NCBI GenBank assembly: GCA_030431475.1
Contig: JAUIJD010000002.1
Location: forward strand, 124,001-188,000
Length of the DNA stretch: 64,000 bases
DNA from: Verrucomicrobiia bacterium
Lineage (GTDB): Bacteria > Verrucomicrobiota > Verrucomicrobiia > Verrucomicrobiales > Akkermansiaceae
Direction: 5' to 3'
Shown here piece by piece: positions 3,294-28,342 of this stretch. Made by a program: the position numbers and the translations under genes. The notes under the pieces were generated by a model. It was not told the DNA's origin. It saw only the letters and a list, made by a program, of their open reading frames with translations, and made no database searches. Every line of letters begins with the position of its first letter. Positions within the stretch are counted from its first letter, which is position 1.

Positions 3294-3350
3294 GCGACCG
3301 GTGGTCGCACCGCCAAATCTTGAATTTCAAATTCCATCACCTCCGAGCCC

Positions 3351-3716: not shown

Positions 3717-3761
3717 GCCGTCGTTTGTCATTCGTCATTTGCCGCTTACCCTTTCCCGAGC

Positions 3762-3962
3762 ATGTCCCTTCGAGCCTTCCACATCGTCTTCGTCACGGTC
3801 AGCACCCTGCTGTTCCTGTTTCTCGCGGTCTGGGCCTTCGGTCTGACGCGCGAGGAAAGCGTGACGGTCACCGGCCTCGGCGTGCTGGGGGTGATCGGCT
3901 CTCTCGGCATGCCCGCGTACGGCATCTACTTCTACCGCAAGGCCCGCAACATCCTGCTCTGA
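3762..3962 (+). CDS. Small two-helix membrane protein of the oxidase operon
   Basis: A 66-residue protein made almost entirely of two hydrophobic helices (about 6-26 and 33-56) ending in a basic tail (YFYRKARNILL). I do not recognise the family. Its position between subunits IV and II, on the same strand and with a 45-bp gap to subunit IV, suggests an accessory or assembly role in the aa3 oxidase. That role is inferred from context only. Confidence 0.7.
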   Translation: MSLRAFHIVFVTVSTLLFLFLAVWAFGLTREESVTVTGLGVLGVIGSLGMPAYGIYFYRKARNILL

Positions 3963-3970
3963 ATCCCGCC

Positions 3971-4186
3971 ATGAACGCCCTGATCGCCTGCACGACCTGC
4001 GCCAAGAACTTCGTCGACGCCGACGGCCCGAACGCCGCGAGCTGGTCGATCATGTTCCTGCTGGTGGTCATCCTCGGGATGCTCGGGTCGATCGGCTTCT
4101 TCATGGTGCGCATCGCGCGCCGCGAGCAGGAGGGGCTCGACCCCGAGCTGCGCGACGACGTTCCGGCGCCCGCTTCCAACTCCTAA
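3971..4186 (+). CDS. Small single-span membrane protein with N-terminal CxxC, oxidase operon
   Basis: A 71-residue protein starting MNALIACTTCAKNF, with one transmembrane helix (about 25-48) and an acidic C-terminal tail. The CTTC pair at residues 8-11 could be a redox or metal site facing the membrane surface. It starts 8 bp after the previous gene and is followed 15 bp later by subunit II, so the genes are almost certainly co-transcribed. A longer reading of the same frame begins inside subunit IV; the ATG at 3971 is preferred because it does not overlap known genes. The function is not known to me; a role in CuA delivery or oxidase assembly is a guess from position and the CxxC. Confidence 0.65.
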   Translation: MNALIACTTCAKNFVDADGPNAASWSIMFLLVVILGMLGSIGFFMVRIARREQEGLDPELRDDVPAPASNS

Positions 4187-4201
4187 GCCCACTTTTTCCG
4201 C

Positions 4202-4993
4202 ATGACCTCCCTGAGTCCTTCGAAATTCCTCGGTATCCCCGACTCGTTCTCCACCCACGGCGGGCGGGTCGATCACATGATCGATGTGGTCCACTGGCTG
4301 ATGATCGCCCTGTTCATCGGCTGGACCTTGTTCTTCCTGCTTTGCCTGGTCCGTTTCCGGCAGAGCGCCAATCCCAAGGCCTCCTACCACGGGGTGCGCA
4401 ACCACGTCTCGTCCCACCTCGAGATCGGGATTGTGATTCTCGAGGCGGTCCTTCTCCTCGGTTTCGCCTTCCCGCTGTGGAAGGAGCGGACCGATACCTG
4501 GCAGATCGTCCAGCAGCAGGACCCGGTGCGCGTGCGGGTGATCGGCTGGCAGTACGGCTGGACCTACCACTATCCGGGCGAGGACGGGAAGTTCGGGCGC
4601 ATCGACCACCGCCTCAAGAACGCCAACAGCGACCCGGGCATCGACCTGGATGATCCGAACGCCCACGACGATTTCATCGCCTCGGTGCTCAAGCTCCCGG
4701 TCGGGCGTCCGGCCATCCTCAACATCACCTCCAACGACGTGATCCACGGCTACGCCATCGTTCCGATGCGCATCCAGCAGGACGCGATTCCCGGACGCGA
4801 GATTCCGATGTGGTTCACGCCGAACAAGGAGATGGAGACCTACGTCGTCTGCGCGCAGCTCTGCGGCGACGGTCACGCCCGGATGGCCGGCAACATGGAG
4901 GTCATCTCCGCCTCGGCCTACAAGGAGTGGGCCAAGGGCCAGTCGGATTCGATGCTCAAGGCGAACACGCCGGAGAAGGTCGCCCTGCGCTGA
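4202..4993 (+). CDS. ctaC: Cytochrome c oxidase subunit II (CuA subunit)
   Basis: 263 residues, with two N-terminal transmembrane helices (about 25-50 and 75-95) and a periplasmic cupredoxin domain. The CuA site is complete: an upstream His in DVIHGYAI, then C-AQL-C-GDG-H-AR-M near residues 218-229. The usual Glu between the two Cys is Gln here; that position ligates copper through its backbone carbonyl, so copper binding should be kept. There is no fused cytochrome c domain, so this is not caa3-type. It is the last gene of the oxidase operon and faces plsX across a 133-bp gap in which I see no clear terminator. Confidence 0.93.
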   Translation: MTSLSPSKFLGIPDSFSTHGGRVDHMIDVVHWLMIALFIGWTLFFLLCLVRFRQSANPKASYHGVRNHVSSHLEIGIVILEAVLLLGFAFPLWKERTDTWQIVQQQDPVRVRVIGWQYGWTYHYPGEDGKFGRIDHRLKNANSDPGIDLDDPNAHDDFIASVLKLPVGRPAILNITSNDVIHGYAIVPMRIQQDAIPGREIPMWFTPNKEMETYVVCAQLCGDGHARMAGNMEVISASAYKEWAKGQSDSMLKANTPEKVALR

Positions 4994-5126
4994 GGCGGCG
5001 GCAGGCAACCCTCAGGAAAGAGCGCGACGCCGGCGCGCCCGCGCCTCGTCCCCGATGTCGGGCGAACCGCGCGAATCCGGTGTCCGGATGCTCCGGCGGG
5101 TTCTCCGGCCGCAGGCGTGCCCTCGA

Positions 5127-6173
5127 TCAGGACGCAGGAGCGGCGTCGGATCCCTGGATCAGCTCCAGCGCCTCGCGGATGTGCTGGTTGACCCGGTGAT
5201 CAACGCTCTCGACCGCGGTGCGGATCGCGTTGCGGATGGCCAGCGGGGTCGAGCCGCCGTGGGCGATGATCACGGTGCCGTTGACGCCGAGGAGCGGGCT
5301 TCCGCCGTAGGTTTCGGCGCTCATGCGCTCCTTGAGCTCGATGAACGCGCCCTTCGCCATGAGGGCGCCGAGCTTGCGCAGGGGAGTGGCGGTCAGGGAT
5401 GACTTGAGGTGGCTCGAGAGCGCCTTGGCGGTCGCCTCGCAGCTCTTGAGCACGATGTTGCCCACAAACCCGTCGCACAGGCAGACGTCGAGTTTGGTGT
5501 CGAAAAGGTGATGACCCTCGATGTTGCCGACGAACTCGAAGGGGGCGCGTCCGGTGCTGACGAACTCCTTCAGCATCGCGAAGGTCTGCTTCGTGAAGGC
5601 GGTGCCCTTCTCGTCCTCCTCGCCGTTGGACATGAGGCCGACGCGGGGCTTGTCGACGCCGTAGACTCCGGCGGAGAACGCGGCGCCCATGATGGCGTAG
5701 CCGAGGAGGTGGGAGGGCTTGGCCTCGGGGTTGGCTCCGGCGTCGAGCAGGTGGCAGGCCCCGTGGTCGTTGGGCAGGCCGGAGGCGATGCCGGCGCGCT
5801 CGATGCCGGGGATCAGGCGCAGCTTGAGCTGGGCGGCGGCCACGCAGGCGCCGGTGTTGCCGGCGGAAACGAAGGCGTCGGCCTCACCCGCCTTGACCAG
5901 GTCCATGGCGATCGAGATCGACGACTGCTTCTTGCGCCGGATGGTCTTGGCGCCGGGCTCCGACATCCCGATCACCTCGGGGGCGTGGACCAGCTCGACG
6001 CGCTTGTCGGCCAGGTCGAGTCCGTGTTTAGGGGCCTCGGCCCGGAGGCGTTCCTCGTCGCCGACGAGCAGCAGCTTTTCGAGGGTGGGGCAGCGCTTCA
6101 GGGCGTCGGCACCCCCCTCCAGGTTGACTTCGGGGGCGCGGTCGCCACCCATCGCATCGAGCGCAACTTTCAT
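5127..6173 (-). CDS. plsX: Phosphate acyltransferase PlsX
   Basis: 348 residues, full length for the family. PlsX makes acyl-phosphate from acyl-ACP for phosphatidic acid synthesis at the cytoplasmic membrane face. Family hallmarks are the start MKVALDAMGGD, the SAGNTGA motif near 103-109, and VCLCDGFVGNIVLKS near 230. It is the last gene of a minus-strand cluster gluQ-yceD-rpmF-plsX; the yceD-rpmF-plsX order is widely conserved in bacteria. It has moderate spacing (73 bp) from rpmF. Confidence 0.95.
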   Translation of the reverse strand: MKVALDAMGGDRAPEVNLEGGADALKRCPTLEKLLLVGDEERLRAEAPKHGLDLADKRVELVHAPEVIGMSEPGAKTIRRKKQSSISIAMDLVKAGEADAFVSAGNTGACVAAAQLKLRLIPGIERAGIASGLPNDHGACHLLDAGANPEAKPSHLLGYAIMGAAFSAGVYGVDKPRVGLMSNGEEDEKGTAFTKQTFAMLKEFVSTGRAPFEFVGNIEGHHLFDTKLDVCLCDGFVGNIVLKSCEATAKALSSHLKSSLTATPLRKLGALMAKGAFIELKERMSAETYGGSPLLGVNGTVIIAHGGSTPLAIRNAIRTAVESVDHRVNQHIREALELIQGSDAAPAS

Positions 6174-6246
6174 GGGGCCGGATACAGAAAATCACCGCGC
6201 CGGAGGTTCCGGAGCGGCGATGAAAGAAAAAGGAGTCCGGACGAGC

Positions 6247-6429
6247 TCAGAAAGCGTCGACCTCAAGCACCTTGCGCCCGCGGTAGTAGCCGCAGGACGG
6301 GCACGCGATGTGGGACGGCACGCGGCTGTCGCACTCCGGGCAGGTCTTGAAAATCGGCGCACGCCAACGGTTGGCGCCTCGGCGCTTCTTCTGGCGGCTT
6401 TTGGACTGACGACGCTTGGGTACGGCCAT
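6247..6429 (-). CDS. rpmF: 50S ribosomal protein L32
   Basis: 60 residues, starting MAVPKRRQSKSRQKKRR, the basic N-terminus typical of L32. It carries an intact zinc ribbon (CPEC near 30 and CPSC near 44), so it is the zinc-binding form. It starts 12 bp after the stop of the DUF177 gene and precedes plsX, the conserved arrangement. Confidence 0.96.
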   Translation of the reverse strand: MAVPKRRQSKSRQKKRRGANRWRAPIFKTCPECDSRVPSHIACPSCGYYRGRKVLEVDAF

Positions 6430-6441
6430 GACGGAAAGAGG

Positions 6442-6948
6442 TTAGCGTTCGGGATCGGTGTTCTTGAGAGCGTCGAGGGCCGACCAACGGTCGTCTCCCT
6501 CGTCGCGGGGCGGGGTCTCTACCGCATCCGCCCCCGGTTTGTCCACCGCCAAATATCGAGGATCGATTTCGCAGTGCTGCGGTTCGTCGGCGTCATCGCA
6601 GCGCGGATCGGTGGGAAAGTTGATCACGACCTCCTCGCGGACCGCCTCGGTGGCGTCGATCGGCCCTCCATCCTCGATTTCCAGGGAAACCGCGGCATTC
6701 TCGACGGTGATGGTCTGGACGAAGGGGTGGAGCGTGCGGACGCAGGTGAACTCGAAGGGGGCCGAGAGCAGCCCGGTGAGCAGGAGCTCGGAGCCGAATC
6801 GCTGGGCCCGGAGCTCGTAGTGCAGCGGGCCGGCGGGGACGGCGTCGCCCTTCGGGAGCTGGAAAATGTCGGGCGAGAGGTCGCCCTCGTGGTCCCTGCC
6901 TTCCTCCGGCAGGGTCTTGAGATCGATGAGAAGGCGCTTGGAGCTCAT
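6442..6948 (-). CDS. yceD: YceD/DUF177 family protein
   Basis: 168 residues from the ATG at 6948, which fits the family start (SSKRLLIDLKTLPEEG). An upstream in-frame TTG at 6984 is less likely. DUF177/YceD proteins are linked to 23S rRNA accumulation and ribosome assembly and are almost always encoded next to rpmF, as here. Conserved elements include the central GLLSAPFEFTCVRTLHPF and the acidic C-terminal half. The usual paired Cys motifs are not all present: one Cys appears in FTCVR and one in PRCDDAD. Confidence 0.85.
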   Translation of the reverse strand: MSSKRLLIDLKTLPEEGRDHEGDLSPDIFQLPKGDAVPAGPLHYELRAQRFGSELLLTGLLSAPFEFTCVRTLHPFVQTITVENAAVSLEIEDGGPIDATEAVREEVVINFPTDPRCDDADEPQHCEIDPRYLAVDKPGADAVETPPRDEGDDRWSALDALKNTDPER

Positions 6949-7008
6949 GCCGGGGATGATCGGTGATTGCCCGGGAATGTCCAATGCGGAGACGGTGGCG
7001 GCGGGGCC

Positions 7009-7839
7009 TCAATCGCCGGGAAGCATGGCCAGGACCTCGCCCGCCGAGCAGCCGGCGTCGCGGAAATGCCGGATCGACCGGGCGTCGTCGCGCTTGGCCA
7101 GGCGGCGGCCGTTTTCGTCGGTGACCAGCCGGTGGTGGAGGTATTCGGGCGCTGGAAGGCCCAGCAGGGCCTGCAGGAGGCGGTGGACGTGGGTGGCCGG
7201 GAGCAGGTCCTCGCCGCGGGTGACGAGCGTGATGCCGTCGTCGGCGTCGTCGGCGACTACCGAAAGGTGGTAGGAGGTGCCGATGTCCTTGCGGGCGAGC
7301 ACGAGGTCGCCGAGGAGTCCGGGATCCACCTGGACCCGCCCGTGGCGCCGATCGTCGAAGTCGAGGGGCCCGACGAGGGTCGCCGCCTTCGTGGCATTGA
7401 GGCGCCAGGCGGGAGCCCCCCCCGTTTCGAGGCGCCTGGCGCGCTCCTCGGGTTCCAGGGCCCGGCAGGTCCCCGGGTAGAGCGGGCCCTCCGGGCCATG
7501 GGGGGCGGAGGTCATGCGGGAGATCTCGGCTTCGACCTCCCGACGGGTGCAGAAGCAGGGATACACGGCCTCGAGCGAGCGGAGGCGGGCGAGGACCTCG
7601 CGGTGGCGCGCCGCGCGCTCGAGTTGCGGCGGGGTCTCGCGGTCGGGGGCAAGGCCCAGCCAGGCCAGGTCTTCGCGGGCTGCGGCGTAGTATTCCGGCC
7701 GCACGCGGGTGTGATCGATGTCCTCGAAGCGCAGCAGGTAGCCGCCGGGCGATGCCTGTTCCCGGGCCACCCGGGCCGCGAAGGCGTGGCCGAGGTGCAG
7801 CAGGCCGGTGGGGCTGGGAGCGAAGCGGGTTTGGCTCAC
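7009..7839 (-). CDS. gluQ: Glutamyl-Q tRNA(Asp) synthetase
   Basis: 276 residues, about the length of GluQ-RS and lacking the anticodon-binding half of GluRS. It attaches glutamate to queuosine in tRNA-Asp. The class I signature appears as SPTGLLHLGHA (residues 9-19, HIGH equivalent), and the KMSKS-like loop as RRLAKRD near 245. A Cys pair in YPCFC near 94-98, with further possible ligands in YPGTC, fits the zinc site of this family. It is the first gene of the minus-strand cluster and is divergent from the CrtI-like gene across 72 bp. Confidence 0.9.
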   Translation of the reverse strand: MSQTRFAPSPTGLLHLGHAFAARVAREQASPGGYLLRFEDIDHTRVRPEYYAAAREDLAWLGLAPDRETPPQLERAARHREVLARLRSLEAVYPCFCTRREVEAEISRMTSAPHGPEGPLYPGTCRALEPEERARRLETGGAPAWRLNATKAATLVGPLDFDDRRHGRVQVDPGLLGDLVLARKDIGTSYHLSVVADDADDGITLVTRGEDLLPATHVHRLLQALLGLPAPEYLHHRLVTDENGRRLAKRDDARSIRHFRDAGCSAGEVLAMLPGD

Positions 7840-18363: not shown

Positions 18364-18438
18364 TCCGGTGTAGCTCAGCGGTAGAGCGGGTGGCTGTTAA
18401 CCACTAGGTCCTTGGTTCGATCCCAAGCGCCGGAGCCA
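18364..18438 (+). tRNA. tRNA-Asn (GTT), CCA encoded
   Basis: It folds as a standard cloverleaf. The acceptor is TCCGGTG (18364-18370) paired with CGCCGGA (18428-18434), the D arm is GCTC...GAGC, and the anticodon loop is CTGTTAA with anticodon GTT. The T arm is CTTGG-TTCGATC-CCAAG, with discriminator G and encoded CCA (18436-18438). The gene is intact even though it is the integration target of the following element, because the element brought its own copy of the 3' part. A weak TTGCCT-N17-GCATCT promoter lies at 18302-18330. Confidence 0.97.
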
Positions 18439-18480
18439 ATGGAAAGCCCTGATCCTCAATGGATTGGGGCTTTCGCCTTT
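18405..18480. repeat. Attachment-site direct repeat, tRNA-proximal
   Basis: 76 bp identical to 22855-22930 except T18460 versus A22910, which lies in the loop of the terminator hairpin. It covers the tRNA from the anticodon 3' side through the T arm and acceptor, plus 42 bp downstream. Crossover by the integrase must have occurred somewhere within it. Confidence 0.9.
18442..18480 (+). terminator. Rho-independent terminator of tRNA-Asn (copied by the element)
   Basis: A 14-bp stem (18442-18455 with 18461-18474, including two G-T wobbles) has a 5-base loop and is followed by GCCTTT. The same hairpin recurs at 22892-22930 with a longer T run. Confidence 0.75.
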
Positions 18481-18495
18481 CTGGGTGTAGGGGTC

Positions 18496-18520
18496 GGTAT
18501 AGGCACCGATTCTAGGCACT
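18496..18520. promoter_or_regulatory. Putative integrase arm-type sites, left end
   Basis: GGTATAGGCAC (18496-18506) and TCTAGGCA (18511-18518) lie just inside the proximal repeat. The same two words occur at the other end of the element beside the integrase start. Placement at both element ends fits recombinase/excisionase arm-binding sites. Confidence 0.5.
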
Positions 18521-18546
18521 CCCGGAGTGTTTCCCGCATTTCGGGC

Positions 18547-19329
18547 TCACTTCGGCAGGAAATCCAGCAGGCTCCGGGCGTCGCTCGCCGGTGGTTCCCA
18601 CGCTTCCCGCCACCCGGCCGGGACGTTGGAGCAAATCCGGGGAGGGTAGGCGCGGCCGGCGGCTCGGGTGCTGCGGACGATCAGCCCGGCGGGGGGCTCC
18701 GGGATGGGGTCGGGCGGCGCGGTGAACATGTCCACCGCGTCCTGTGTCCATTCCCAGAATTCCCGCCGGCATGCCCCGACGATCTCGAGCGGGTCGCCGT
18801 CGAGTCGCCAGCGCGGGATTGTGAGATGGAGCGCGGGCGGCTGATAGAGCTCTGGGGCGATGTCCGGGCCGTCGAGGATCAGGGCGAGGATCTCGGCGGG
18901 GAGTCGGCGGGCCTCGCGCCTCAGGGCGTTCTCCGCGCTCTTGCGCACCCTCTTTGCTACCTGGTCACCGGCCACGAGGCGGAGCCACTGGAATTCCAAC
19001 TCGGTCACCCGCCAAGCCTCGCGACCGCGTGGCGGCTTCTGTGGCCAGTCGGCAACCTCGCTCGGGAGACGCCCGACGGTCTCGGAATCCCGGTGGCGGA
19101 GTAGGTCGCCCCAGAACGGCCAGCATTCGAAGGCGAGCCACTCGATCAACTCGCGTTCGTTCACGTTGCCATTGGGGCGGCATGCACCGCACCCTTGCGC
19201 CTTGGCCATGCTCAGGGCCTCCGATGGAAGGTTGAGGGCGGATGCGGCGGCGGCGAGGCTGGCAAAGGTTCGCTTTCGCGATGCGACGGGCGGGCAAGGG
19301 CGGGGTGTGTGTGGGTCTGGCATGGTCAT
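18547..19329 (-). CDS. Element protein with terminase-small-like N-terminal DNA-binding region
   Basis: 260 residues, last gene of the element's overlapping operon (its ATG overlaps the previous stop as ATGA). The N-terminal 70 residues (FASLAAAASALNLPSEALSMA, then GCGACRPNGNVNERELIEWL) resemble the DNA-binding region of some phage terminase small subunits or HTH proteins that read out a helix after a Pro/Gly turn. The remainder is Trp/Pro-rich with no recognised domain. If the N-terminal resemblance is real, it would support a phage-satellite lifestyle. I could not confirm it from sequence alone. Confidence 0.55.
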   Translation of the reverse strand: MTMPDPHTPRPCPPVASRKRTFASLAAAASALNLPSEALSMAKAQGCGACRPNGNVNERELIEWLAFECWPFWGDLLRHRDSETVGRLPSEVADWPQKPPRGREAWRVTELEFQWLRLVAGDQVAKRVRKSAENALRREARRLPAEILALILDGPDIAPELYQPPALHLTIPRWRLDGDPLEIVGACRREFWEWTQDAVDMFTAPPDPIPEPPAGLIVRSTRAAGRAYPPRICSNVPAGWREAWEPPASDARSLLDFLPK

Positions 19330-19637
19330 ATCTGGCGCTTTTTCGAGGTCTTGGCCGTCTCGGCTCGATCACTGGGGAAGGACCCGCGATCCGGTGGCGG
19401 GGAAGGGGAAGGCGTCCCCTTCCGGCGGCGGATGGCCTTTGCCTTCTCGAGAGCTACGGCAATCGCATCCTCGGCGGCTTTCTGGTCGATGCTCAGCAAG
19501 TGGAGCACGGCGCGGCCGGTGCTGTCGGGGTAGCTCCCCGGGGCGACAATCGCGAAGTTCACACCCTCGGCCCGGAGGTGCTCGGATTGTCCCTCGGTCA
19601 GCACGAGGCGCTCGGGCGGTTGTGGTTCCTGTTTCAT
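19326..19637 (-). CDS. Small element protein of unknown function
   Basis: 103 residues. It has a folded-looking N-terminal 70 residues (LVLTEGQSEHLRAEGVNFAI, then AVLHLLSIDQKAAEDAIAVA) and a Pro/Ser/Lys-rich tail. The helical stretch ending in KAKAIRRRKG may bind nucleic acid. Start and stop both overlap neighbours by four bases (ATGA), so translation is probably coupled. Confidence 0.55.
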   Translation of the reverse strand: MKQEPQPPERLVLTEGQSEHLRAEGVNFAIVAPGSYPDSTGRAVLHLLSIDQKAAEDAIAVALEKAKAIRRRKGTPSPSPPPDRGSFPSDRAETAKTSKKRQI

Positions 19638-20428
19638 CGGCTCGCGGGTGGGTCGAGGCTCAGGGTCTTCGGCTTCCGGCCTCCGATGTCCACAACGGGG
19701 CGCTCGGCTTGCGCTGGTTCATCCTGCCAGCCTCGATTCTTGATCCAGAGGTCGCAGGCGGGAACGAACTTCCCCGCGTCTTTGGTCCATTGCTCCTCTG
19801 TCTTCCAGAGTTGGAGCACGCGGAGCACTTCGGCAGGGTCGGGGCGCGGGGATAGCCGTTGCCATGCCCGGCGGGCTTTCTCGCGGGTGGAGCGGTTCCG
19901 CCCGGTGGCGGGGTAGGCTTCCCATATCGGCACGAGTTCCGCCGGCATCGCCCCCTTTTGGGGGCTCTGGGGGGTGGTCTGTTCCGGTTCTATCAGCTCG
20001 GATTGGGTACTGCTCGGGTCGGGTGCATCTGGACTGCTTCCGCCCGTCCCTTTGGGAGTCCTTGAAGGAGAGCTTTCGGCACTCTCATTCTTCCGCCACC
20101 TCTGGGCCGCTCGCGCCTTCCCTCCTTTCCTGCCCCCTTCGATCTTCTTGGACGTGATGCGTTCGCCCTCGATGTCGTAGGGTGAGAGTCGGAGGTCATC
20201 GCCTTCCCATTCCCACAAGGGGGAGGGCTGGCGGAGGATGTCGGGAGCTTCGATCCCGTGGCGCTGCCAGAACTTCGGCGGCATCCGCTTCGCTCCCTCG
20301 ATCCGTCCGCTGTTCATCTGCTTCGCGCAGAGAGCATGCAGGAAGAGCCACGTCGCCACCTGGTCGGCGCTGGCGATGGTGAAGGCTTCGCTTTCGAGGT
20401 CGGAGATATGGACGGCAAAGAACTTCAT
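19634..20428 (-). CDS. Phage/plasmid-type replication protein candidate
   Basis: 264 residues. The N-terminal 90 residues (DQVATWLFLHALCAKQMNSG, then PPKFWQRHGI and LWEWEGDDLRLSPYD) resemble the winged-helix N-domain of phage replication-initiation proteins. A Lys/Arg-rich GGRKGGKARAAQRWRK follows. The C-terminal part (IWEAYPATGRNRSTREKARR, then FVPACDLWIKNRGWQDE) has the pattern seen at the end of phage O/DnaD-like replication proteins. It is the central gene of the element operon and overlaps both neighbours by ATGA. The function is inferred from motif style; no catalytic site is expected in this class. Confidence 0.55.
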   Translation of the reverse strand: MKFFAVHISDLESEAFTIASADQVATWLFLHALCAKQMNSGRIEGAKRMPPKFWQRHGIEAPDILRQPSPLWEWEGDDLRLSPYDIEGERITSKKIEGGRKGGKARAAQRWRKNESAESSPSRTPKGTGGSSPDAPDPSSTQSELIEPEQTTPQSPQKGAMPAELVPIWEAYPATGRNRSTREKARRAWQRLSPRPDPAEVLRVLQLWKTEEQWTKDAGKFVPACDLWIKNRGWQDEPAQAERPVVDIGGRKPKTLSLDPPASR

Positions 20429-20712
20429 CCGCCGGCCCTCCCTTCCGTGTCGAGGTCGTCGAGGATGGAAAGCACGCGCTCGGCCTCGCGGCGGGACCGT
20501 CGCGGGGCTCGGCGCTCAACTCGCGGGTCGATGTCGAGGGGCCAGTCGTCATCCGGGAGGGGCCGGCCGGCTTCGATCCATGCGGCGTGTTCCGCTACCG
20601 TCACGCGGCGAGCTTGCCTTGGCCTCCCTTCGCCGGCATACTTCCCACGGGTCGCCACCCATTGCCCCGCGTCGCCTTTGCGGCCGGGGCGTTCTTGTGT
20701 CGGGTCGCTCAT
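20425..20712 (-). CDS. Small charged element protein of unknown function
   Basis: 95 residues, strongly charged, with Arg-rich stretches (RRAPRRSRREAERVL) and an acidic end. No domain is recognised. Its start overlaps the excisionase-like gene (ATGA at 20709-20712) and its stop overlaps the replication-like gene, placing it firmly in the same operon. Confidence 0.5.
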   Translation of the reverse strand: MSDPTQERPGRKGDAGQWVATRGKYAGEGRPRQARRVTVAEHAAWIEAGRPLPDDDWPLDIDPRVERRAPRRSRREAERVLSILDDLDTEGRAGG

Positions 20713-20999
20713 CCCTCGCCCCCTCCCCTGTTCGCGTTCATCGCCAGCGCGGAGGGGCTCCGCTCGATCCCGGCTTCAATCCACGAGTCGAGGGACTCCC
20801 GGAGGATCAGGCGCCGGCCTCGGCTGGTGCCTGGTCGGATCACGTTGGAAGAGGTCACGTGTCCATCCCGCACGAGAAGCTCGATCAGGGATTTCGAGAG
20901 TCCGCTGTAATGGGCGGCTTCCTTGATCCCGAACCACTTCGGCGGGATGGCTTCGGCAACGGCTTCGCGTGCCCCGGTCGGTTGGTATTTCTTCGCCAT
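20709..20999 (-). CDS. Excisionase/AlpA-like helix-turn-helix protein
   Basis: 96 residues. Residues about 20-75 form a MerR/excisionase-type winged helix: WFGIKEAAHYSGLSKSLIEL (a typical IKEAA..SG.S recognition helix), then an RRLILRESLDSWIEA wing and helix. It would act as a directionality factor or regulator of the element. It is the first gene of a five-gene minus-strand operon in which every junction is a 4-base ATGA overlap. Confidence 0.75.
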   Translation of the reverse strand: MAKKYQPTGAREAVAEAIPPKWFGIKEAAHYSGLSKSLIELLVRDGHVTSSNVIRPGTSRGRRLILRESLDSWIEAGIERSPSALAMNANRGGGEG

Positions 21000-21289
21000 G
21001 CCTACGCCTGACGGCGGCGCTCAGCGACTCGGCGGGCGGAGCAAAGCGGGCTTGGGCCGATCAGGTAGCCGCGCAAGGCTTAGAATCAGGCACCGGCCCG
21101 CTTAGCGGCGCTTTGTCGCTACTGCCCCCCCTTGTTTTCCCTTCGTTCCGTAGGCATGCAGCACCGTCCGGCGCTTTGTTTGGCGTTTTAACGCTCAGCG
21201 GCGCTTTGTAATGTTTCCCTGTAGTACCCGAGCCTTTGAGGCTCAGCGGCTTGAGGTGGGCTCGGCGCTTCGGTAGGGCTCTTCCTGCC
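21000..21289. promoter_or_regulatory. Element control region with repeated CGGCGCTTTGT words
   Basis: 290 bp without a gene, between the RHH-like gene and the excisionase-like operon. It holds three direct copies of CGGCGCTTTGT (21106-21116, 21169-21179, 21199-21209). CTCAGCG also appears three times (about 21020, 21194, 21242). Repeats of this kind can be iterons of a replication origin or operator sites. Its place just upstream of the operon that contains the replication-like gene fits either reading. Confidence 0.5.
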
Positions 21290-21496
21290 CTATTTCAGCC
21301 ACGGGCCGGAAAGGATCTCGCGTCGGTCGTCGTCGCCGGTTCCGTCGCTGGCCTTGAGAAGTTCCCTCCGGCTCCAATCCTCGATCGGCAGGCCGGCGCG
21401 GTTGGCGGCGCGGTTGATGCGCTCCATTTCCGCCGGGCTGAATCGAAAGGTGAGGACATGAACCGGAAACTCCGGGCGAGTCTGGCGCGGCTTCAT
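21290..21496 (-). CDS. Small RHH/CopG-like element protein
   Basis: 68 residues. A predicted beta strand followed by two helices (HVLTFRFSPAEMERINRAAN, then GLPIEDWSRRELLKAS) matches the layout of ribbon-helix-helix DNA-binding proteins. Its start overlaps the integrase stop by four bases (ATGA at 21493-21496), so both are co-translated. It may regulate the element or its integrase. Confidence 0.6.
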   Translation of the reverse strand: MKPRQTRPEFPVHVLTFRFSPAEMERINRAANRAGLPIEDWSRRELLKASDGTGDDDRREILSGPWLK

Positions 21497-22746
21497 GATC
21501 CGAGGGCTTCGAAGTTCGGGAGAGACTCAACGGCCCGGTCGAGGGCTTCATCGTGGTGGGTGTAGCGGGCATGCACTCCCGCGCTACTGTGGCCGGTGAG
21601 ACGCTGCCGCACGTCCGCGTGCACGTCGGCCTCGGCAAGCCACGAGGCGAAGCTGTGGCGCAGGCTGTGGAAGCTCCTGCGTTTCACCACGTCGCCGGCT
21701 TCGACAATCTCCCGCGCCACTCCGGCGCGTTCCATGATGCGGCGGAATTGGGTCGAGAGGGTGCCTGTCTTGCGCCCTGTCAGGCTGGGGAAGAGGTCGC
21801 CTTGCCGGTCCCCGATCCAGCGCAGGCACGGCGGCGTGAGCGGCACGGAAAGCGTCTTGCGGGTGCGCTTCGTCTTCTCCGGCCGGATCACGAGGCGGGA
21901 GCCTTGGAGGTGCTCGCGGCGAAGTCGGATCACGTCGCCCAAGCGCAGGCCGGTATGGGCGGCGATCAGGATGCACCCGCGCCACTCGTCGGGGGTGCTG
22001 GCGTGGTCGATCATGGCGCGGACTTCCTCAGCGGTGAAGGGGGCGCGTTCGGTGCTGTCGCTCGTCGGAAGTGCCCGGATTCCCTCGGCGGGGTTCACCT
22101 TGGCAAGATCCTGGGCAACCGCATCGCGGAGGGCGCGGCGGAGCGCGGCAAGGTCCATGTTCGCCGTTGCGGCCGTGATGGTCCGGGCGGGTTGGCGCTT
22201 CGCATTCTTCCGGCGTGGCGCGGAGCGCGGCCGGCGGGTCGCGGCAATCGGCATTTTCACGATCTTCCCAAGGGCTTTCTCGATGTCCGATTGCCGCAGG
22301 GCCCCCACGGGCGCCTTGGCAATCTTCGGCCCGAGAGCGGCGAGCATGCGGCGGCGCATGTCCTCATACACGAGGGCGGACTTGGCGGAGACGTGCGGGC
22401 GCTGGCGCTCGATCCATTCCCCAAGGTGCTCGGCAAGCGATACCTCGCGGAACGTCGGGTTGGCGGTCCGGTGCGCTTCGGTCAGCAGCTCCTCAAAGCG
22501 GGCGAGGGTGAGCTTGCCGGCGTCGGCCTCGCGCACTCCGATCTCGAGGATTGCGGCGAGCTTTCGGGGAAGGAATGCGTCGCCGCTCTGTCGCCGCTCG
22601 TGCTCCTTGGCTTCGAAGGTGGCGGCGATCTTCTCCGCCTCCCGCTTCTTCGTCGTGCCGGTCGTTTTCGAGACGCGCCGGCCCTCCGCGTTGAAATACT
22701 GGGCGTACCAGTTCGGGGACTTCGCTTGCTTGTAGAGGGTCGCCAT
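21493..22746 (-). CDS. int: Tyrosine site-specific integrase
   Basis: 417 residues. It catalyses site-specific recombination between the tRNA-Asn att sites. The N-terminal arm-binding segment (YAQYFNAEGRRVSKTTGTTK) is followed by a core-binding domain (about 105-210). The catalytic domain has Arg in AAHTGLRLGD near 266, HSLRHSFASWL near 355, and GHSSAGVHARYTH near 381 with the nucleophilic Tyr. All catalytic residues look intact, so the element may still be active. It starts 109 bp from the distal att repeat, with repeated words (22761-22817) covering its promoter region. Confidence 0.93.
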   Translation of the reverse strand: MATLYKQAKSPNWYAQYFNAEGRRVSKTTGTTKKREAEKIAATFEAKEHERRQSGDAFLPRKLAAILEIGVREADAGKLTLARFEELLTEAHRTANPTFREVSLAEHLGEWIERQRPHVSAKSALVYEDMRRRMLAALGPKIAKAPVGALRQSDIEKALGKIVKMPIAATRRPRSAPRRKNAKRQPARTITAATANMDLAALRRALRDAVAQDLAKVNPAEGIRALPTSDSTERAPFTAEEVRAMIDHASTPDEWRGCILIAAHTGLRLGDVIRLRREHLQGSRLVIRPEKTKRTRKTLSVPLTPPCLRWIGDRQGDLFPSLTGRKTGTLSTQFRRIMERAGVAREIVEAGDVVKRRSFHSLRHSFASWLAEADVHADVRQRLTGHSSAGVHARYTHHDEALDRAVESLPNFEALGS

Positions 22747-22760
22747 GGTTCCGGGGTGGG

Positions 22761-22817
22761 TCTAGGCATTGGTATAGGCACGAAAGACGCTCAACAAGGC
22801 TTTTCGGTGCCTATACC
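22761..22817. promoter_or_regulatory. Putative integrase arm-type sites, right end
   Basis: TCTAGGCAT (22761-22769) and GGTATAGGCAC (22771-22781) are followed by an inverted copy GTGCCTATACC (22807-22817). The words match those at 18496-18520. They lie immediately upstream of the integrase ATG, so binding there could also control integrase expression. Confidence 0.5.
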
Positions 22818-22854
22818 AGCCGCAAACCCTTGTAGAATAAGGGAAGCGGTCAAA

Positions 22855-22930
22855 TAGGTCCTTGGTTCGATCCCAAGCGCCGGAGCCAATGGAAAGCCCT
22901 GATCCTCAAAGGATTGGGGCTTTCGCCTTT
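22855..22930. repeat. Attachment-site direct repeat, tRNA-distal, with tRNA-Asn 3' remnant
   Basis: The second copy of the 76-bp repeat. Positions 22855-22888 are a displaced 3' fragment of the original tRNA-Asn (T arm, acceptor, CCA), which is not a functional tRNA by itself. The following hairpin ends in a better T tract (five T) than the proximal copy, consistent with this being the host's original terminator. Confidence 0.88.
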
Positions 22931-23024
22931 TTCGGGGGCGGGTGGTGCCGCCAGTTGTGAATGAGACCGCCTCTCGAAGGGGCCAACTCGTGGCGCTTGG
23001 GATGGGAAGGAGGCGCCTTCCGGT

Positions 23025-23483
23025 TCAGTCGAACAGGGGCTTGAGGTCGTCGTCCTCGGCGGCCATGCGGCGAAAGCCGGCGTCCCGCTCGATCGCCTGT
23101 TCCAGCAGGGCACCGGCGGCTTCAAGTTCGCCGGACACCGAGGCGTAGCAGGCGAGGTTGTAGAGGATCATGGGCTCTTCCGGATGCCGGTCACGGGCCT
23201 TGAGGAGAATCTCGCGTGCGGCATCGACGGACTCCGCCCGGCGAACGGCGTAGGCCCAGCTGATCCACCACTGGGCTTCATCCGGGGAGCGTGCCGCCCA
23301 TTTCCCTGCCAACTCACTCATCTCATCCCACTTCGACTGAAGGGAGAGAACGTGGCAGCAAAGGGTGGCGATGGCCTCGTGCTCGGGGTCCAGGTCCGAG
23401 AGCTCCTCCAGGGCCTCATCGTAGAGCTCGAGTTCCGTGAAGCCTTGGGCCGCCAGGATGCGTTTGCGGATGTCGTCGTCCAT
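23025..23483 (-). CDS. TPR-repeat protein
   Basis: 152 residues from the ATG at 23483 (MDDDIRKRILAAQGF). It consists of about four tetratricopeptide-like helical pairs, for example PMILYNLACYASVSGELEAA near 107-126. Probably soluble and cytoplasmic, acting in protein-protein contacts; the partner is unknown. It sits just outside the mobile element. A short hairpin (GGAAGG-AGGCG-CCTTCC, 23005-23021) follows the stop on the minus strand but lacks a T tract. Confidence 0.8.
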   Translation of the reverse strand: MDDDIRKRILAAQGFTELELYDEALEELSDLDPEHEAIATLCCHVLSLQSKWDEMSELAGKWAARSPDEAQWWISWAYAVRRAESVDAAREILLKARDRHPEEPMILYNLACYASVSGELEAAGALLEQAIERDAGFRRMAAEDDDLKPLFD

Positions 23484-23675
23484 CGTCGACGCGAGGGTTC
23501 GGATGGATGGGGAGCGGGTCAAGGACAGCTGCTCGTGCGAATCCGGCGGGCCCGGCCGCCTGCCGACTCGCGGAATCGGCTGGTAGAAGGGCAATTTCGC
23601 AAAGGAGGGGAACTCCGTCGTTTCGCGAAGGAATGGAACTCCGGCCATTCTCCCAGCCGATTCCGTTCATTGGGA

Positions 23676-26600
23676 TCAGTGGAAGTCGTGGGAGCGGGTG
23701 GCGTGGGAGGAGCGGGCCTCGGGGAGGGGGCGCAGGGCGGTGACGTAGACGGTGCGCTGGTCGCCCTCGGAAACCTGCACCCGGCCCTCGGCGAGAAGAA
23801 AGGCTTCGGCGACGATCACCAGCCGGAGTTCGGCGAAGGTGCGGCGCGGGACGAAGAGGTTGGCGATGCCGGTCTCGTCCTCGAGCGAGATGAAGCAGTG
23901 GCCCTTGGCGGTGCCGGGACGTTGGCGGCAGATGACGAGGCCGCCGACTTCAACGGGGGCACCGTGCGGCAGCGTCTGCAGGGTGGCGGCGTCGGTGAGT
24001 TCCAGGCCGCTGTGGCGGCGCCAGAGCTTCATCGGGTGCGGCCCGGAGGAAAGCCCCTGGGTTTCGAGGTCGGCGGAGAGCCGCTCGGGCAGGGTCATGG
24101 GTGGGAGGGGGCCGCCTGCGGCGGAGTGCCGGGTGCCGGGTGCCGGGTGAGAAGTGGAAGAAGGACCTTCTTCCCTGGACCTTTGGCATGGGGCTCTGGG
24201 GGTTTCCGAAAGGAGGTCGTCGTGGAGGGGGAGCTCGACCTGCCACATGGCCTCGCGGCGGTGGGGGCGTTCGGGGAGATCGTTGAGGGCACCGGCCTTG
24301 GCGAGCAGCCGGCGCTCGCGGAGGTTCGGGTCGACGCGGTGGAGGAGGTCGTCGAGACCGCTGAAGGGCTGCTGGATGCGTTGCTGGAGCAGTCGGTCGA
24401 GGGTGGCGGTGGACAGGCCCTTGATCCGGTGGAGGCCGAGCCGGAGGGTGCGGTCGTCGATGACTTCCGTTTCCCGGCTACTATGAACGCAGGAGACGGG
24501 AAGGATGTGCAGGCCGCGGCGTTTGGCATCGTGGATCAGCGAGTGGGCGGAGTAGAAGCCCATCGGCTGGTTGTTGAGCAGTCCGGTGTAGAAGGCGGCG
24601 GGGTGGTGGACCTTGAGCCAGCACGAGTGGTAGGCGATGAGGGCGAAGGCCAGCGCGTGGCTTTCGGGGAAGCCGTAGAGCGCGAAGTTGCCGATGGAGC
24701 GGACGACCTTCTCCTGCACCTCGCCGTCGATGCCTCGTTCGTCCAGGCGGTTTCGCAGCTTGGCGGTGACCTGCTTCATTCGCTCGTCGGAGCGGTGGAA
24801 GGACATGGCGCGGCGCAGTTCGTCGGCCTCGGCACCGGTGAAGCCGGCGAGGATCATGGCCATCTTGAGCACCTGTTCCTGGAACAGGGGTACGCCCAGG
24901 GTGCGCTCGAGGACGGGCCGGAGGTCGGGGTGGATGAAGTCGGGGGGCTCGGTGCCGTTGCGGCGGCGCAGGTAGGGGTGGAGCAGGTCGCCGACGATGG
25001 GACCGGGGCGGACGATGGCGACCTGGATGGCGAGTTCGTAGAAGTTGTCGGGCCGCAGGATGCGCAGGGTGGACATCTGGGCGCGCGACTCGACCTGGAA
25101 GGTGCCGACGGTGTCGGCGCGGTGGAGCAGGTCGTAGACGGCGGGGTCGTCGAGCGGGATGCGGGCGGGGTCGATGGGCGTGCCGCGTTCTCCGCAGAGG
25201 GTGAAGGCATCCTGCATGGCGGCGAGCATGCCGAGGCCGAGCAGGTCGATCTTGACGATGCCGAGGTCCTCGCAGTCGTCCTTGTCCCACTGGACGACGG
25301 TGCGCCCGGGCATGGCGGCGGGTTCGATGGGGACGATCTCGTCGAGCCCGCGGTCGCAGATGATCATGCCGCCGGAGTGCTGGCCGAGGTGGCGCGGCAT
25401 GCCGAGCACGCCGCGGTAGAGCTTGTCCAAAGCCGCGGCGCGCGGGTGCGACGGCGGGACGAGGCCGCCGAAGGGGTCATCGTCCTCGGGGGTCTCTGTG
25501 CTGCCGGTGGGGGTGCCGATTTCATAATCGGCGCTCCTTTGATGGTGGCCGGTCGAGGAGAAGCGGTCGGCCAGCGAGGGCGGAAAGCCGAGCACCTTGG
25601 ACATCTCGCGGAAGGCGGAGCGGGGGCGGTAGGTGATGACGTTGGCGGTCATGGCCGCACCGCGGGCGCCGTACTTTTCGAAGACGTACCGGATGACCGA
25701 CTCGCGGCGCTCGCCGGAGGGGAAGTCGATGTCGATGTCCGGCCACTTGCGCTGGTTCTCGGACAGGAAGCGCTCGAAGACGAGGCGCTGGCCGAAGGCG
25801 TCGACGTGGGTGATGCCGAGGACGAAGCAGACGACCGAGTTCGCGGCCGAGCCGCGGCCCTGGCAGAGGATGCCGCGGCGGCGGGCGAAGCGGACGATGT
25901 CGCGGACGATGAGGAAGTAGCCGGAGAAGCCGAGGCGGTCGATGAGCTCGATCTCGCGGTCGATCTGGGCGAGGGCTTTTCCACGAGGTTTGCCGTATCG
26001 ATCGCGGGCGCCCTCGAGGCAGAGCCGGCGGAGGAGGGCGGTCTGGTCGGGCATCGACATCGGCTTGCCCGAATCGTCGGGGAAATCCGGGAAGCGGTAG
26101 CCGAGATTCTCGAGGGTGAAGTCGAGGCGTTCGTCGAGGCGGCGGACGTTTGCGAGGGCTCCGGGGTGGTCGGCGAAGAGGCGGGCCATGTCCCGGGGCG
26201 GCTTGAGGTGGCGTTCGCCGTTGGGGGCGAGGAGGCGGCCGGCGCGGTCGAGCGGGACGTGGTGGCGCAGGCAGGTGAAGGCATCGGCCAGCAGCCGGTC
26301 GGCGCGGGTGGCGAAGAGCGGGGCGTTGGTGGCGAGCAGCGGGAGCTTGAGGTGGGCGGCGAGGTCGACGAGGTGGCGGACGAGTCGCTCGTCGTCGCGC
26401 AGGCCGTGGCGCATGATCTCGACGTAGACGTTTCCGGGGCCGAAGAGCTCGACGAGCGACTTCGCGGCGCGGAGGGCGGCCGGCCGGTCGTCGCGGACCA
26501 GATGACGCATCACCGGTCCCTCCCGGTCGCCGGTGAGGGCGACGAGGTGACCGCCGTCGAGGGGGGCGTGGGGGGCGATGGCGCCGAGGTGGTGGTTGGT

Positions 26601-26870
26601 GAGGTGGCGGGAGAGGATGCGGTAGCCGTCGCGGGTGGCGCACAGGACCGGGATCGGGGCGCCGTCGATCTCGAGCGTGGCACCGACGAGGGCCCGGAGG
26701 CCGCACTCGAGGGCGGCGTGGTGGGCTCGGGCGGAACCGTAGAAGCCCTCGTGGTCGGTGAAGGCGAGGGAGGTGTAGCCGAGTTCGGCGGCCCGCCGGA
26801 CCATCGCCTCCGGCTGGCTGGCGCCACGGAGAAAGGAGAAGGCGGAACGGGCGTGGAACTCGCTGAGCAT
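23676..26870 (-). CDS. dnaE2: Error-prone DNA polymerase DnaE2 (ImuC)
   Basis: 1064 residues. It is the alpha-subunit-type translesion polymerase of the ImuA-ImuB-DnaE2 mutasome. The PHP domain is N-terminal (residues 1-290), followed by the polymerase with the catalytic aspartates in WPDIDIDFPSG near 400 and CQGRGSAANSVVCF near 345. A C-terminal OB domain follows (APVEVGGLVICRQRPGTAKG). The start MLSEFHARSAFS at 26870, 11 bp after the imuB stop, is preferred over upstream starts that overlap imuB. A Ser/Pro-rich insert (about residues 911-937) precedes the OB domain. Confidence 0.94.
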   Translation of the reverse strand: MLSEFHARSAFSFLRGASQPEAMVRRAAELGYTSLAFTDHEGFYGSARAHHAALECGLRALVGATLEIDGAPIPVLCATRDGYRILSRHLTNHHLGAIAPHAPLDGGHLVALTGDREGPVMRHLVRDDRPAALRAAKSLVELFGPGNVYVEIMRHGLRDDERLVRHLVDLAAHLKLPLLATNAPLFATRADRLLADAFTCLRHHVPLDRAGRLLAPNGERHLKPPRDMARLFADHPGALANVRRLDERLDFTLENLGYRFPDFPDDSGKPMSMPDQTALLRRLCLEGARDRYGKPRGKALAQIDREIELIDRLGFSGYFLIVRDIVRFARRRGILCQGRGSAANSVVCFVLGITHVDAFGQRLVFERFLSENQRKWPDIDIDFPSGERRESVIRYVFEKYGARGAAMTANVITYRPRSAFREMSKVLGFPPSLADRFSSTGHHQRSADYEIGTPTGSTETPEDDDPFGGLVPPSHPRAAALDKLYRGVLGMPRHLGQHSGGMIICDRGLDEIVPIEPAAMPGRTVVQWDKDDCEDLGIVKIDLLGLGMLAAMQDAFTLCGERGTPIDPARIPLDDPAVYDLLHRADTVGTFQVESRAQMSTLRILRPDNFYELAIQVAIVRPGPIVGDLLHPYLRRRNGTEPPDFIHPDLRPVLERTLGVPLFQEQVLKMAMILAGFTGAEADELRRAMSFHRSDERMKQVTAKLRNRLDERGIDGEVQEKVVRSIGNFALYGFPESHALAFALIAYHSCWLKVHHPAAFYTGLLNNQPMGFYSAHSLIHDAKRRGLHILPVSCVHSSRETEVIDDRTLRLGLHRIKGLSTATLDRLLQQRIQQPFSGLDDLLHRVDPNLRERRLLAKAGALNDLPERPHRREAMWQVELPLHDDLLSETPRAPCQRSREEGPSSTSHPAPGTRHSAAGGPLPPMTLPERLSADLETQGLSSGPHPMKLWRRHSGLELTDAATLQTLPHGAPVEVGGLVICRQRPGTAKGHCFISLEDETGIANLFVPRRTFAELRLVIVAEAFLLAEGRVQVSEGDQRTVYVTALRPLPEARSSHATRSHDFH

Positions 26871-26881
26871 GGGATGGAAGC

Positions 26882-28342
26882 TCAGGTTCCGTAGTGGCCT
26901 TCGAGGCGCCATTGCTCGGGGGGGAGGTGGGCGAGGCGGAAGAAGCCGGTGGCAAGTTGGACGTCCCACTCGATGCGGCGCCAGCGGTCCTGCTCGTCCC
27001 ACCAGCAGCCGGAATGGAGGAAGGGGCCGCGGGAGCGGAGGATCTCACCACGGTGGGGGCCGGAAAGCAGGGCGAGCGGGGTCGGGCCGGGGGAGAAGGC
27101 GACGTGGATGGCGTAGGGGGGGCGGAAGCGCCGGAGCGGCACCGGACAGGCAGGCCAGGCATCGCTTTCCACGGCGGCGACGGAGGGCGGACGGATGTCC
27201 GACGCCGCTTCCCGGTGATCCGTGGGAAGCGTGGGGATGCCGACGCGTCGATCTCCGAGCAGGGCCTCGAGTCGGGCGAGGGTTTCCTGCCACTGCCGGG
27301 GCCGGGGGAGCTGGTGCTGGAAGGCGTCGCGCTGGGCGACCTCGGGATCGGCCGTTTCGGCGTCGAGGGAGAGGCGCTCGACGGCGGCGGGGAGCTTGAG
27401 GTTCTCAAGCAGGAGGCGCACGGGGTCGAGCAGGGCGTCGGTGCGTGGTTCGGGCAGGTGGAGGAGACGCTCGAGCTCCGAACCATCCTCGAGGTGGAAG
27501 CCGAGCCGCAGGGTGCGTGCGGCGACGTGGCGGGCATGGAGTCGCGCGGTGAGCGGACCGAGCAGGCGCTGGAAGGCAAAGGCGAGCGGCTCGCTGTCGT
27601 GGATCGGATGCTCGAGATTAAGGGTCTGGGCGAGGTTCTCCGGCGGACGATGGAGCCGGAGCGGGCGTCGTCGTCGTTCGTGGAGGAGGTCGTGCCATGT
27701 GCCGGCATCCGGGCCGAGGCGCTCGGTGAGGGCCTGGCGGGGGAGCTTCATGAAATCGCCGAGAGTGTGGAGCCCCCACGATTCGAGCAGCTTGAGCAGC
27801 GCCGCACCGCCGGGCAGCACACCGAGGAGGGAAAGCGGCAGCGGCATCACCGTGTCGGGCGTGACGAAGCTGCCGTGGCAGTTCTCCACGCGCACGGCGA
27901 GGCCGGCGAGGTCGGGCGTGGCGGCGCGGACGTGGCGCAGTTCTTCGCCGCCGTGCATTTCCAGCCAGTCGAGGCGGCCGGTCTGGCGGGTGGTGGCGCG
28001 GGAAAGATCGAGCAGGAGGGTGTCGGTCGTGGCGATCTCGAGGTCGGGCGTCAGGGTTTCGGCGTGGCCGATCATCTCCGCCAGCAGGCTCGCCTCGTGG
28101 TCGGGGCGGGGCGTCAGCACCTGCAGCCCGGGGCAGCGGACCAGCGCCCGGTTGAGCGGCCAGCCGGCGTCGATCCCGGTGCGGCGAGCGGCATCGTTCA
28201 CCGCGAGCAGCGGAAGCTTCACGCGCTCGACGATCGTGTCGTCCTCGAGCGCGAGCACCCCGCAGGGCAGGCGCCAGGCATCGGGCCGGGCGCGCAGAGC
28301 GGCGTGGACGGGCAGGTCGACCAGATGGAGGGCAGCGAACAT
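26882..28342 (-). CDS. imuB: ImuB, inactive Y-family polymerase-like protein
   Basis: 486 residues from the ATG at 28342 (MFAALHLVDLPVHAALRARP). ImuB resembles a Y-family polymerase but lacks most active-site acids; it links DnaE2 to the sliding clamp. The palm region shows TDTLLLDLS near 130 in place of the active SIDE motif, and the first-motif DxxxFFA is replaced by HLVDLPVHA. It lies second in the operon between imuA and dnaE2. In-frame upstream codons reach into a tandem repeat encoding IPIPIP and are not plausible as protein. Confidence 0.88.
   Translation of the reverse strand: MFAALHLVDLPVHAALRARPDAWRLPCGVLALEDDTIVERVKLPLLAVNDAARRTGIDAGWPLNRALVRCPGLQVLTPRPDHEASLLAEMIGHAETLTPDLEIATTDTLLLDLSRATTRQTGRLDWLEMHGGEELRHVRAATPDLAGLAVRVENCHGSFVTPDTVMPLPLSLLGVLPGGAALLKLLESWGLHTLGDFMKLPRQALTERLGPDAGTWHDLLHERRRRPLRLHRPPENLAQTLNLEHPIHDSEPLAFAFQRLLGPLTARLHARHVAARTLRLGFHLEDGSELERLLHLPEPRTDALLDPVRLLLENLKLPAAVERLSLDAETADPEVAQRDAFQHQLPRPRQWQETLARLEALLGDRRVGIPTLPTDHREAASDIRPPSVAAVESDAWPACPVPLRRFRPPYAIHVAFSPGPTPLALLSGPHRGEILRSRGPFLHSGCWWDEQDRWRRIEWDVQLATGFFRLAHLPPEQWRLEGHYGT

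Follow-up and report, generated by a model that had tools for sequence, protein, structure and literature searches.

What is the 4.45-kb element that sits in a tRNA-Asn gene of this Verrucomicrobiia genome, and how might so small a piece of DNA move between cells? The window, that is, the whole 64,000-nt stretch that was analyzed, comes from genome G000 in our numbering, and the element (hereafter the window element) spans positions 18405–22930. It is a bounded, integrated element with an integrase and without a complete virion gene set, as is expected of a phage satellite. We consider that it is probably an intact, very small satellite that uses the capsids of a helper phage. A preliminary description of this DNA had proposed a very compact satellite or integrative element, and that proposal is supported by what follows.

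The window element lies between two direct repeats, the attachment (att) cores attL (18405–18480) and attR (22855–22930), which share 75 of 76 bases at a spacing of 4,450 bp; repeats of this length and offset had been noted before, and the one mismatch is added here. The integration target, a tRNA-Asn (GTT) gene identified by ARAGORN at 18364–18438 on the plus strand, is whole. Because the left repeat contains the final 34 bases of the tRNA together with the hairpin that follows, the tRNA stays whole after insertion. Copies of a 12-base repeat, GGTATAGGCACC, flank both att cores and are putative arm-type integrase sites: one at 18496–18507 (plus strand), one with a single mismatch at 22771–22782 (plus strand), and one inverted at 22806–22817 (minus strand). 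Allowing one mismatch, no copy of this word was found in the tRNA-Asn elements of genomes G013, G006, and G012, and inspection by eye of the G013 and G006 element ends revealed different repeated words at equivalent places. The GC content of the window element (66.5%) equals that of its left flank (66.5%) and is near that of its right flank (68.4%), so that composition gives no sign of foreign origin.

Between the repeats are seven minus-strand genes, as previously described, all of them open and scored as coding. Five ATGA overlaps connect them as two groups, one formed by the integrase gene and a 68-aa gene and the other by genes for proteins of 96 (xis), 95, 264, 103 (g103), and 260 aa (g260). 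The two groups had been recognized earlier, although the overlaps take in all seven genes rather than six. The 417-aa tyrosine integrase (21493–22746; PF00589, 7e-19) shares 68% identity with its counterpart in the G013 element, and its translation contains the R, HxxR, H, and Y residues that we take to be the catalytic motif, in agreement with the intact active site first reported. Among phage records, 96 matched this integrase, none above 80% coverage and none above 60% identity. The 68-aa protein (21290–21496), whose gene overlaps int, is a ribbon-helix-helix protein with a NikA-like match (PF21983, 4.5e-6). The excisionase/AlpA-like winged helix-turn-helix protein (xis, 20709–20999) matched HTH_17 (PF12728; 5.9e-6, 26.9 bits, just below the cut-off of 27) and the phrog_66 excisionases (3.4e-5), and is 59% identical over 73 aa to its G013 counterpart, so the earlier excisionase-like label is retained. 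In the 290-bp gap upstream of xis are three CGGCGCTTTGT repeats (21106, 21169, and 21199; 21106–21209, plus strand), candidate iterons or operator; an 11-mer occurring three times was seen in none of 2000 mononucleotide shuffles of 21000–21290, and GGCGCTTTGT has no further occurrence anywhere in the 64-kb window. The 95-aa protein (20425–20712) is related to the product of a 64-aa gene adjoining xis in a G007 locus. The 264-aa protein (19634–20428), called replication-like before, is a phage-type replication initiator, matching phrog_9474 (replication initiation, 2e-9), phrog_9327 (primosomal, 1e-8), the initiator of a G012 prophage (30% over 270 aa, 5e-17), and prophage-like stretches of G003 and G007. 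Judged by homology only, the window element thus has excision and replication genes of its own. The 95-, 103-, and 260-aa proteins had no Pfam match and no PHROG match below 0.1. Consistent with the reported lack of virion and conjugation genes, none of the seven proteins matched a capsid, tail, or relaxase family in Pfam or PHROG.

The last gene is g260 (18547–19329, minus strand), for which the gene caller favored a later start giving 220 aa. Its product is predicted to combine a winged helix-turn-helix like that of terminase small subunits (TerS) and of the satellite protein Rpp (about residues 17–84) with a C-terminal part without known relatives. In profile comparison, 46 columns of the N-terminal region matched (hhalign 96%, 1e-9) four proteins of 157–165 aa (two from G745, one each from G284 and G303) that are encoded one or two genes downstream of g103, a place held elsewhere by the small terminase. 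Among 145 chains re-aligned with g260 in VIA-align, 6hn7 came first (Z 6.9 over 66 residues), followed by 7lw0 (Z 6.2, root-mean-square deviation 1.8 over 50) and a MerR regulator (Z 4.7), although the tool warns that Z values below 8 may reflect a common arrangement. Entry 6hn7 belongs to the paper on Rpp from an Escherichia coli phage-inducible chromosomal island (PICI), and 7lw0 to work on viral DNA-packaging motors. A resemblance of the predicted g260 N-terminus to DNA-binding domains of phage packaging proteins, including PICI Rpp, is thus supported, and the terminase-small-like N-terminus first proposed from the sequence gains support.

The neighboring gene, g103 (19326–19637, minus strand), places the window element in a family, for which it serves as the marker. 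Its product is modeled by AlphaFold as helix-strand-strand-helix (mean predicted local distance difference test score, pLDDT, 79), and Foldseek gave no significant match to this fold. At a limit of 1e-3, a g103 profile matched 19 genomes among 386 from the order. Once enlarged and applied at 1e-5, it matched 20 of 260 family genomes, spread over 3 of 16 genera; across the phylum, 4 of 387 genomes matched, all from the window's genus. Weak matches in G330 (6e-4) and G351 (9e-4) are absent at the limit of 1e-5 and were not counted. Nine g103-bearing elements are bounded by tRNA repeats, with tRNA-Asn (two), tRNA-Arg (three), tRNA-Thr, tRNA-Leu, tRNA-Val, and tRNA-Pro as targets. They range from 3,451 to 11,232 bp: G000 (4,450 bp), G013 (11,232 bp), G009 (3,451 bp), G008 (8,311 bp), G271 (6,384 bp and, for a second element, 6,695 bp), G055 (7,922 bp), G745 (7,882 bp), and G746 (9,001 bp). 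Eight of the nine have exact repeats of 31 to 53 bp, and that of the window element has its one mismatch. A tenth candidate, on G745 contig 346, shows an imperfect repeat (84%) at a spacing of 8,434 bp; a 15-bp repeat at 8,397 bp on G012 contig 2, without g103, was not counted. The loci of G010, G007, and G303 and the prophage-like region of G003 gave no tRNA repeats, and at the remaining g103 loci either no repeat was seen or the contig stopped. The search for the same gene order beside tRNA genes in other genomes, proposed at the outset, was therefore successful at several tRNA genes. The recurring order is int, xis, a replication gene, g103, and then g260 or a gene in the terminase position, and all but one of the nine bounded elements have a match to the integrase profile.

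Some of these loci add packaging or virion genes to the plan. Of the 15 satellite-type loci in which at least one gene near g103 was compared to PHROGs, six have a small terminase: G193 (4e-16), G360 (6e-12), G008 (1.6e-13), G745 contig 78 (4.8e-7), G746 (3.9e-22), and G013 (6e-7). Capsid genes with 62% mutual identity are found in g103 loci of G353 (PF05065, 5e-13) and G745 contig 78 (phrog_617, 1.4e-8), each about 2 kb or less from a contig end (L090, 1807–2790; L145, 9103–10086). The called genes of the bounded elements gave no match to the large terminase subunit (TerL) or portal of the G012 prophage, and those longer than about 400 aa are integrases, helicase-position genes, and the G013 tape measure gene; family scans covered a part of the genes.

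These additions bear on another explanation, that the window element is a self-replicating integrative element, neither packaged nor conjugated, which excises, replicates in the manner of a small plasmid, and reaches new cells through natural DNA uptake or, occasionally, generalized transduction. Its recognizable genes serve integration and replication only, the 3.45-kb G009 element is just as bare, and its own genome has no detected helper, a point to which we return. However, genes for small terminases, capsid, tape measure, and tail completion occur among the kin of the window element, and g260 itself, with its terminase/Rpp-like DNA-binding domain, occupies the terminase-gene position of several of them. 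We regard an element of this kind as unlikely.

Several other features of the g103 loci were observed. The G009 element (L089, contig C1, 8607–12131), inserted in tRNA-Arg, has int, g103, and four family-less genes, and no recognizable replication gene was found in it. Near the tRNA end of another element, 10-base words occur five times at steps of about 60 bases (L147, 7383–7640). In a different genus, a g103-bearing integrase locus (L091, genome G388, 2483–7073) lies beside a polymerase gene that is presumably of the dnaE2 type, and in the window (22855–27002) the window element nearly adjoins such a gene. On contig C4 of G003 (L095 with L144), g103 lies upstream of TerS, TerL, and portal genes and is therefore common to phages and satellites; g103 had been considered as a satellite-only marker and was dropped as such on account of this region.

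Including the window's own genome, g260 was found in 4 of 97 relatives, and a profile search of the order gave 5 of 386 genomes, the fifth being a weak N-terminal match. Beyond the window it is full-length in G010 and G013, two further species of the genus whose loci carry an integrase, and cut by a contig end in a third species, G006, with an LLDFLP block invariant. In G006, the tRNA-Asn and the truncated g260 share one contig, and the integrase, 58% identical over 282 residues, is on another. The G013 element spans 11,232 bp between perfect 37-bp repeats in the same tRNA-Asn as the window element. It carries the related integrase and xis, genes for a primase of the DnaG/Toprim type and for an AAA protein, g103, g260, and a small terminase gene (phrog_141); its opposite strand encodes a tape measure protein (phrog_9483, 6e-40). 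This tape measure protein, of 732 aa, and its 115-aa neighbor (L006, contig C179, 13429–16035, minus strand) are related to an adjacent pair in G005 (L052, 1857–4573); from sequence, the pair looks as if taken from a phage tail operon and might alter helper tails. The G010 locus, near tRNA-Met, has a tail-completion gene (PF06763, 1.4e-8; phrog_27, 9e-10) between g260 and g103, along with an O-like initiator and a DnaC-like loader. Within an O-like initiator gene at L005 (11512–11689), a 29-base repeat occurs four times and is a possible lambda-style origin. A single g260 sequence found no relatives in genome contigs or viral contigs, and viral contigs likewise gave none with the g260 alignment, the G013 TerS, or the G013 tape measure. 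Thermomicrobiales matches (34% over 67 residues) were left as unproven.

Across the genus, the tRNA-Asn gene adjoins the same neighbor gene in 16 of the 17 genomes possessing that gene, and four of these sites are occupied. At six further tRNA-Asn sites in the genus, over stretches of about 2.8 to 9 kb, no integrase of the window-element kind was found. A full phage also uses this site. In G012, a 41.5-kb prophage with portal, protease, major head protein, and TerL genes lies in the same tRNA-Asn between 36-bp repeats, and in a tree of 22 integrases, three of whose rows are on long branches and unsure, its integrase is sister to those of the three satellites in tRNA-Asn (support 97/96). No g103 or g260 match was found in the G012 genome. 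A portal of the G012 type is present in 7 of 18 genus genomes and TerL (phrog_2) in 10 of 18.

Sharing a site with this prophage raises the question of whether the window element could be the decayed remnant of a prophage that formerly filled the tRNA-Asn. The integrase groups with that of the 41.5-kb prophage and the initiator is phage-related, both in favor of decay, yet seven genes are open, five 4-base overlaps persist, the repeats agree at 75 of 76 bases, the compact plan recurs at other tRNA genes, and g260 was found in the five genomes of the order mentioned above and not in the phage records. Recurrence of one plan at many tRNA genes, with a packaging, capsid, or tail gene gained in some cases, is satellite-like and hard to explain by independent decay. 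The preliminary description had named three signs of a decayed fragment, namely no relatives with the same gene order, proteins without replication or terminase folds, and no element recognizable as a unit among close relatives. None of these was observed: the order recurs, the initiator has its PHROG match and g260 its N-terminal domain, and the element is bounded, with six tRNA-Asn loci of the genus lacking such an integrase. Decay is, in our estimation, very unlikely. Less probable still is a mobilizable element, either integrative (IME) or cis-mobilizable (CIME), moved by a conjugative helper with the NikA-like 68-aa protein marking an origin of transfer (oriT). In its favor is the NikA-like match, barely over the cut-off (27.1 bits vs 27.0). 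Against it, ribbon-helix-helix proteins also serve as ordinary regulators, no relaxase was matched among the seven window proteins (Pfam, PHROG), and in the part of the sister-element proteins that was scanned, the families matched were those of packaging, tail, and replication, with none for mobilization.

A number of observations nevertheless weigh against a satellite, starting with the helper. Neither a phrog_2 TerL nor a G012-type portal was found in the element's own genome, and the check for a resident helper prophage proposed earlier thus came back negative. Since phrog_2 missed G007 and G009, both of which have the portal, and since the assembly is fragmented (109 contigs, 95% completeness), this absence is weak evidence. 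Co-occurrence of g103 and portal is given as counts: among the eight g103-positive genus genomes, the portal is present in G007, G009, G010, and G013 and was not found in G000, G005, and G008, while in G003 g103 is inside the prophage-like region, so that g103 is not exclusive to satellites. Comparison with four prophage stretches gave no clear cos- or pac-like segment in common: 11 of 12 cases stayed within the maximum of 20 shuffles, and the single excess was a 14-base match against a shuffle maximum of 12. Within the family, the second G271 element had no match to the integrase profile, and 9 of the 15 satellite-type loci, including the window's, have no recognizable small terminase.

The remaining reservations concern g260, beginning with the low Z values given above. 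Its AlphaFold model, built from four sequences, is poor, at a mean pLDDT of 49. The winged helix at the N-terminus is fair, the C-terminal two thirds are unexplained, and Foldseek gave no significant match, with 6hn7 ranked second at E 5.4. Likeness to terminases is confined to about the first 85 residues. The 157–165-aa proteins are themselves weak on TerS profiles (phrog_57 at 0.16 in one of four; hhalign 16%), direct hhalign comparison of the g260 set with the small-terminase set reached only 0.1%, and nothing credible was found for g260 or the 157–165-aa proteins among the sequences of solved structures. The G013 element has a separate terminase small subunit in addition to its g260 homologue, and no relative of g260 turned up in the viral contigs or phage records searched. 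Setting the N-terminal matches against the weak or failed TerS comparisons, we conclude that a DNA-binding domain is supported and infer a packaging role.

If the window element is a satellite, its life cycle can be outlined as follows. A tyrosine integrase would have put a 4.45-kb circle into tRNA-Asn and left the tRNA whole, as read from the sequence. Infection by, or induction of, a helper phage like the prophages of sister species would trigger expression of the five-gene operon, whereupon Int and Xis would excise the element and the initiator would start its replication at the repeats around 21.1 kb. The N-terminal winged helix of g260 would then bind element DNA and recruit or re-aim the helper terminase, and copies of the element would fill helper capsids. 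These copies would probably form a concatemer because 4.45 kb is about one tenth of the length of the 41.5-kb prophage.

More tentatively, the window element may belong to a group of satellites specific to its family of Verrucomicrobiota and built on a cassette shared with phages, consisting of a helicase or initiator gene, g103, and a gene in the terminase position. Its members would exchange replication modules, change tRNA targets, and acquire individual virion genes from helpers (tape measure with its neighbor, tail completion, capsid). The window element would be among the smallest; in it, TerS would be replaced by a new protein that joins a DNA-binding domain of the TerS/Rpp type to a new domain and converts the helper terminase. 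Satellite families are known from Proteobacteria, Firmicutes, Cyanobacteria, and Actinobacteria (in part after PMC11389934). In full-text searches of a library without most subscription journals, judged by titles and the openings of abstracts, we found no satellite described in Verrucomicrobiota. Family members of 3.45 and 4.45 kb, if they are true satellites, would push down the lower size limit of satellites, and with g260 in place of a small terminase, the minimum needed for packaging takeover could be tested directly. The tRNA-Asn site, common to satellites and a full prophage with sister integrases, is a natural system for studying the exchange of parts.

How does the window element compare with systems already described? 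The 41.5-kb G012 prophage has the same attachment site, a sister integrase, and a related initiator, but is a full phage with portal, protease, capsid, and TerL and without a g103 or g260 match. Mobilizable elements differ in that the window element has a NikA-like accessory protein only and no relaxase match. P4-like satellites also integrate into tRNA genes and depend on helper virions, but the seven window proteins gave no match to a P4-type gene in Pfam or PHROG. Capsid-forming PICIs (cf-PICIs) resemble the g103-bearing G353 and G745 loci, which have a phage capsid gene near a contig end, whereas the window element has no capsid, portal, or terminase match of its own in Pfam or PHROG. PICIs in general carry int, regulator, and replication genes in the order int, AlpA-type regulator, rep, and TerS or Rpp. 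The window element has int, xis, and rep in this sequence, and the last item by N-terminal similarity only. According to PMC6739421, Rpp of the PICI EcCICFT073 has a winged helix like that of lambda TerS, binds the TerS of the helper, and redirects it to the PICI genome. Like PICIs with Rpp, the window element encodes a protein with a predicted TerS-like winged helix-turn-helix, but g260 differs in its large C-terminal part, found no match among the sequences of solved structures, and comes from a different phylum. In size and economy, the phage-inducible chromosomal minimalist islands (PICMIs) of Vibrionaceae are nearest. In PMC10803314, PICMIs are likewise very small, with an integrase, an AlpA regulator (HTH_17 allowed in the search model), a replication gene, and a short gene overlapping int by ATGA, and without capsid-remodeling genes. 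PICMI115, presented there as the smallest satellite with characterized activity, is about 6 kb by our own division (8 copies in about 49 kbp), compared with 4.45 kb here. PICMIs adjoin fis and have a DUF3987/DUF5906-type primase, for which no Pfam match was found among the seven window proteins, whereas the window element sits in tRNA-Asn with a phage-type initiator, g103, and g260. Consequently, with both the site and the primase differing, we place the window element outside the named satellite families.

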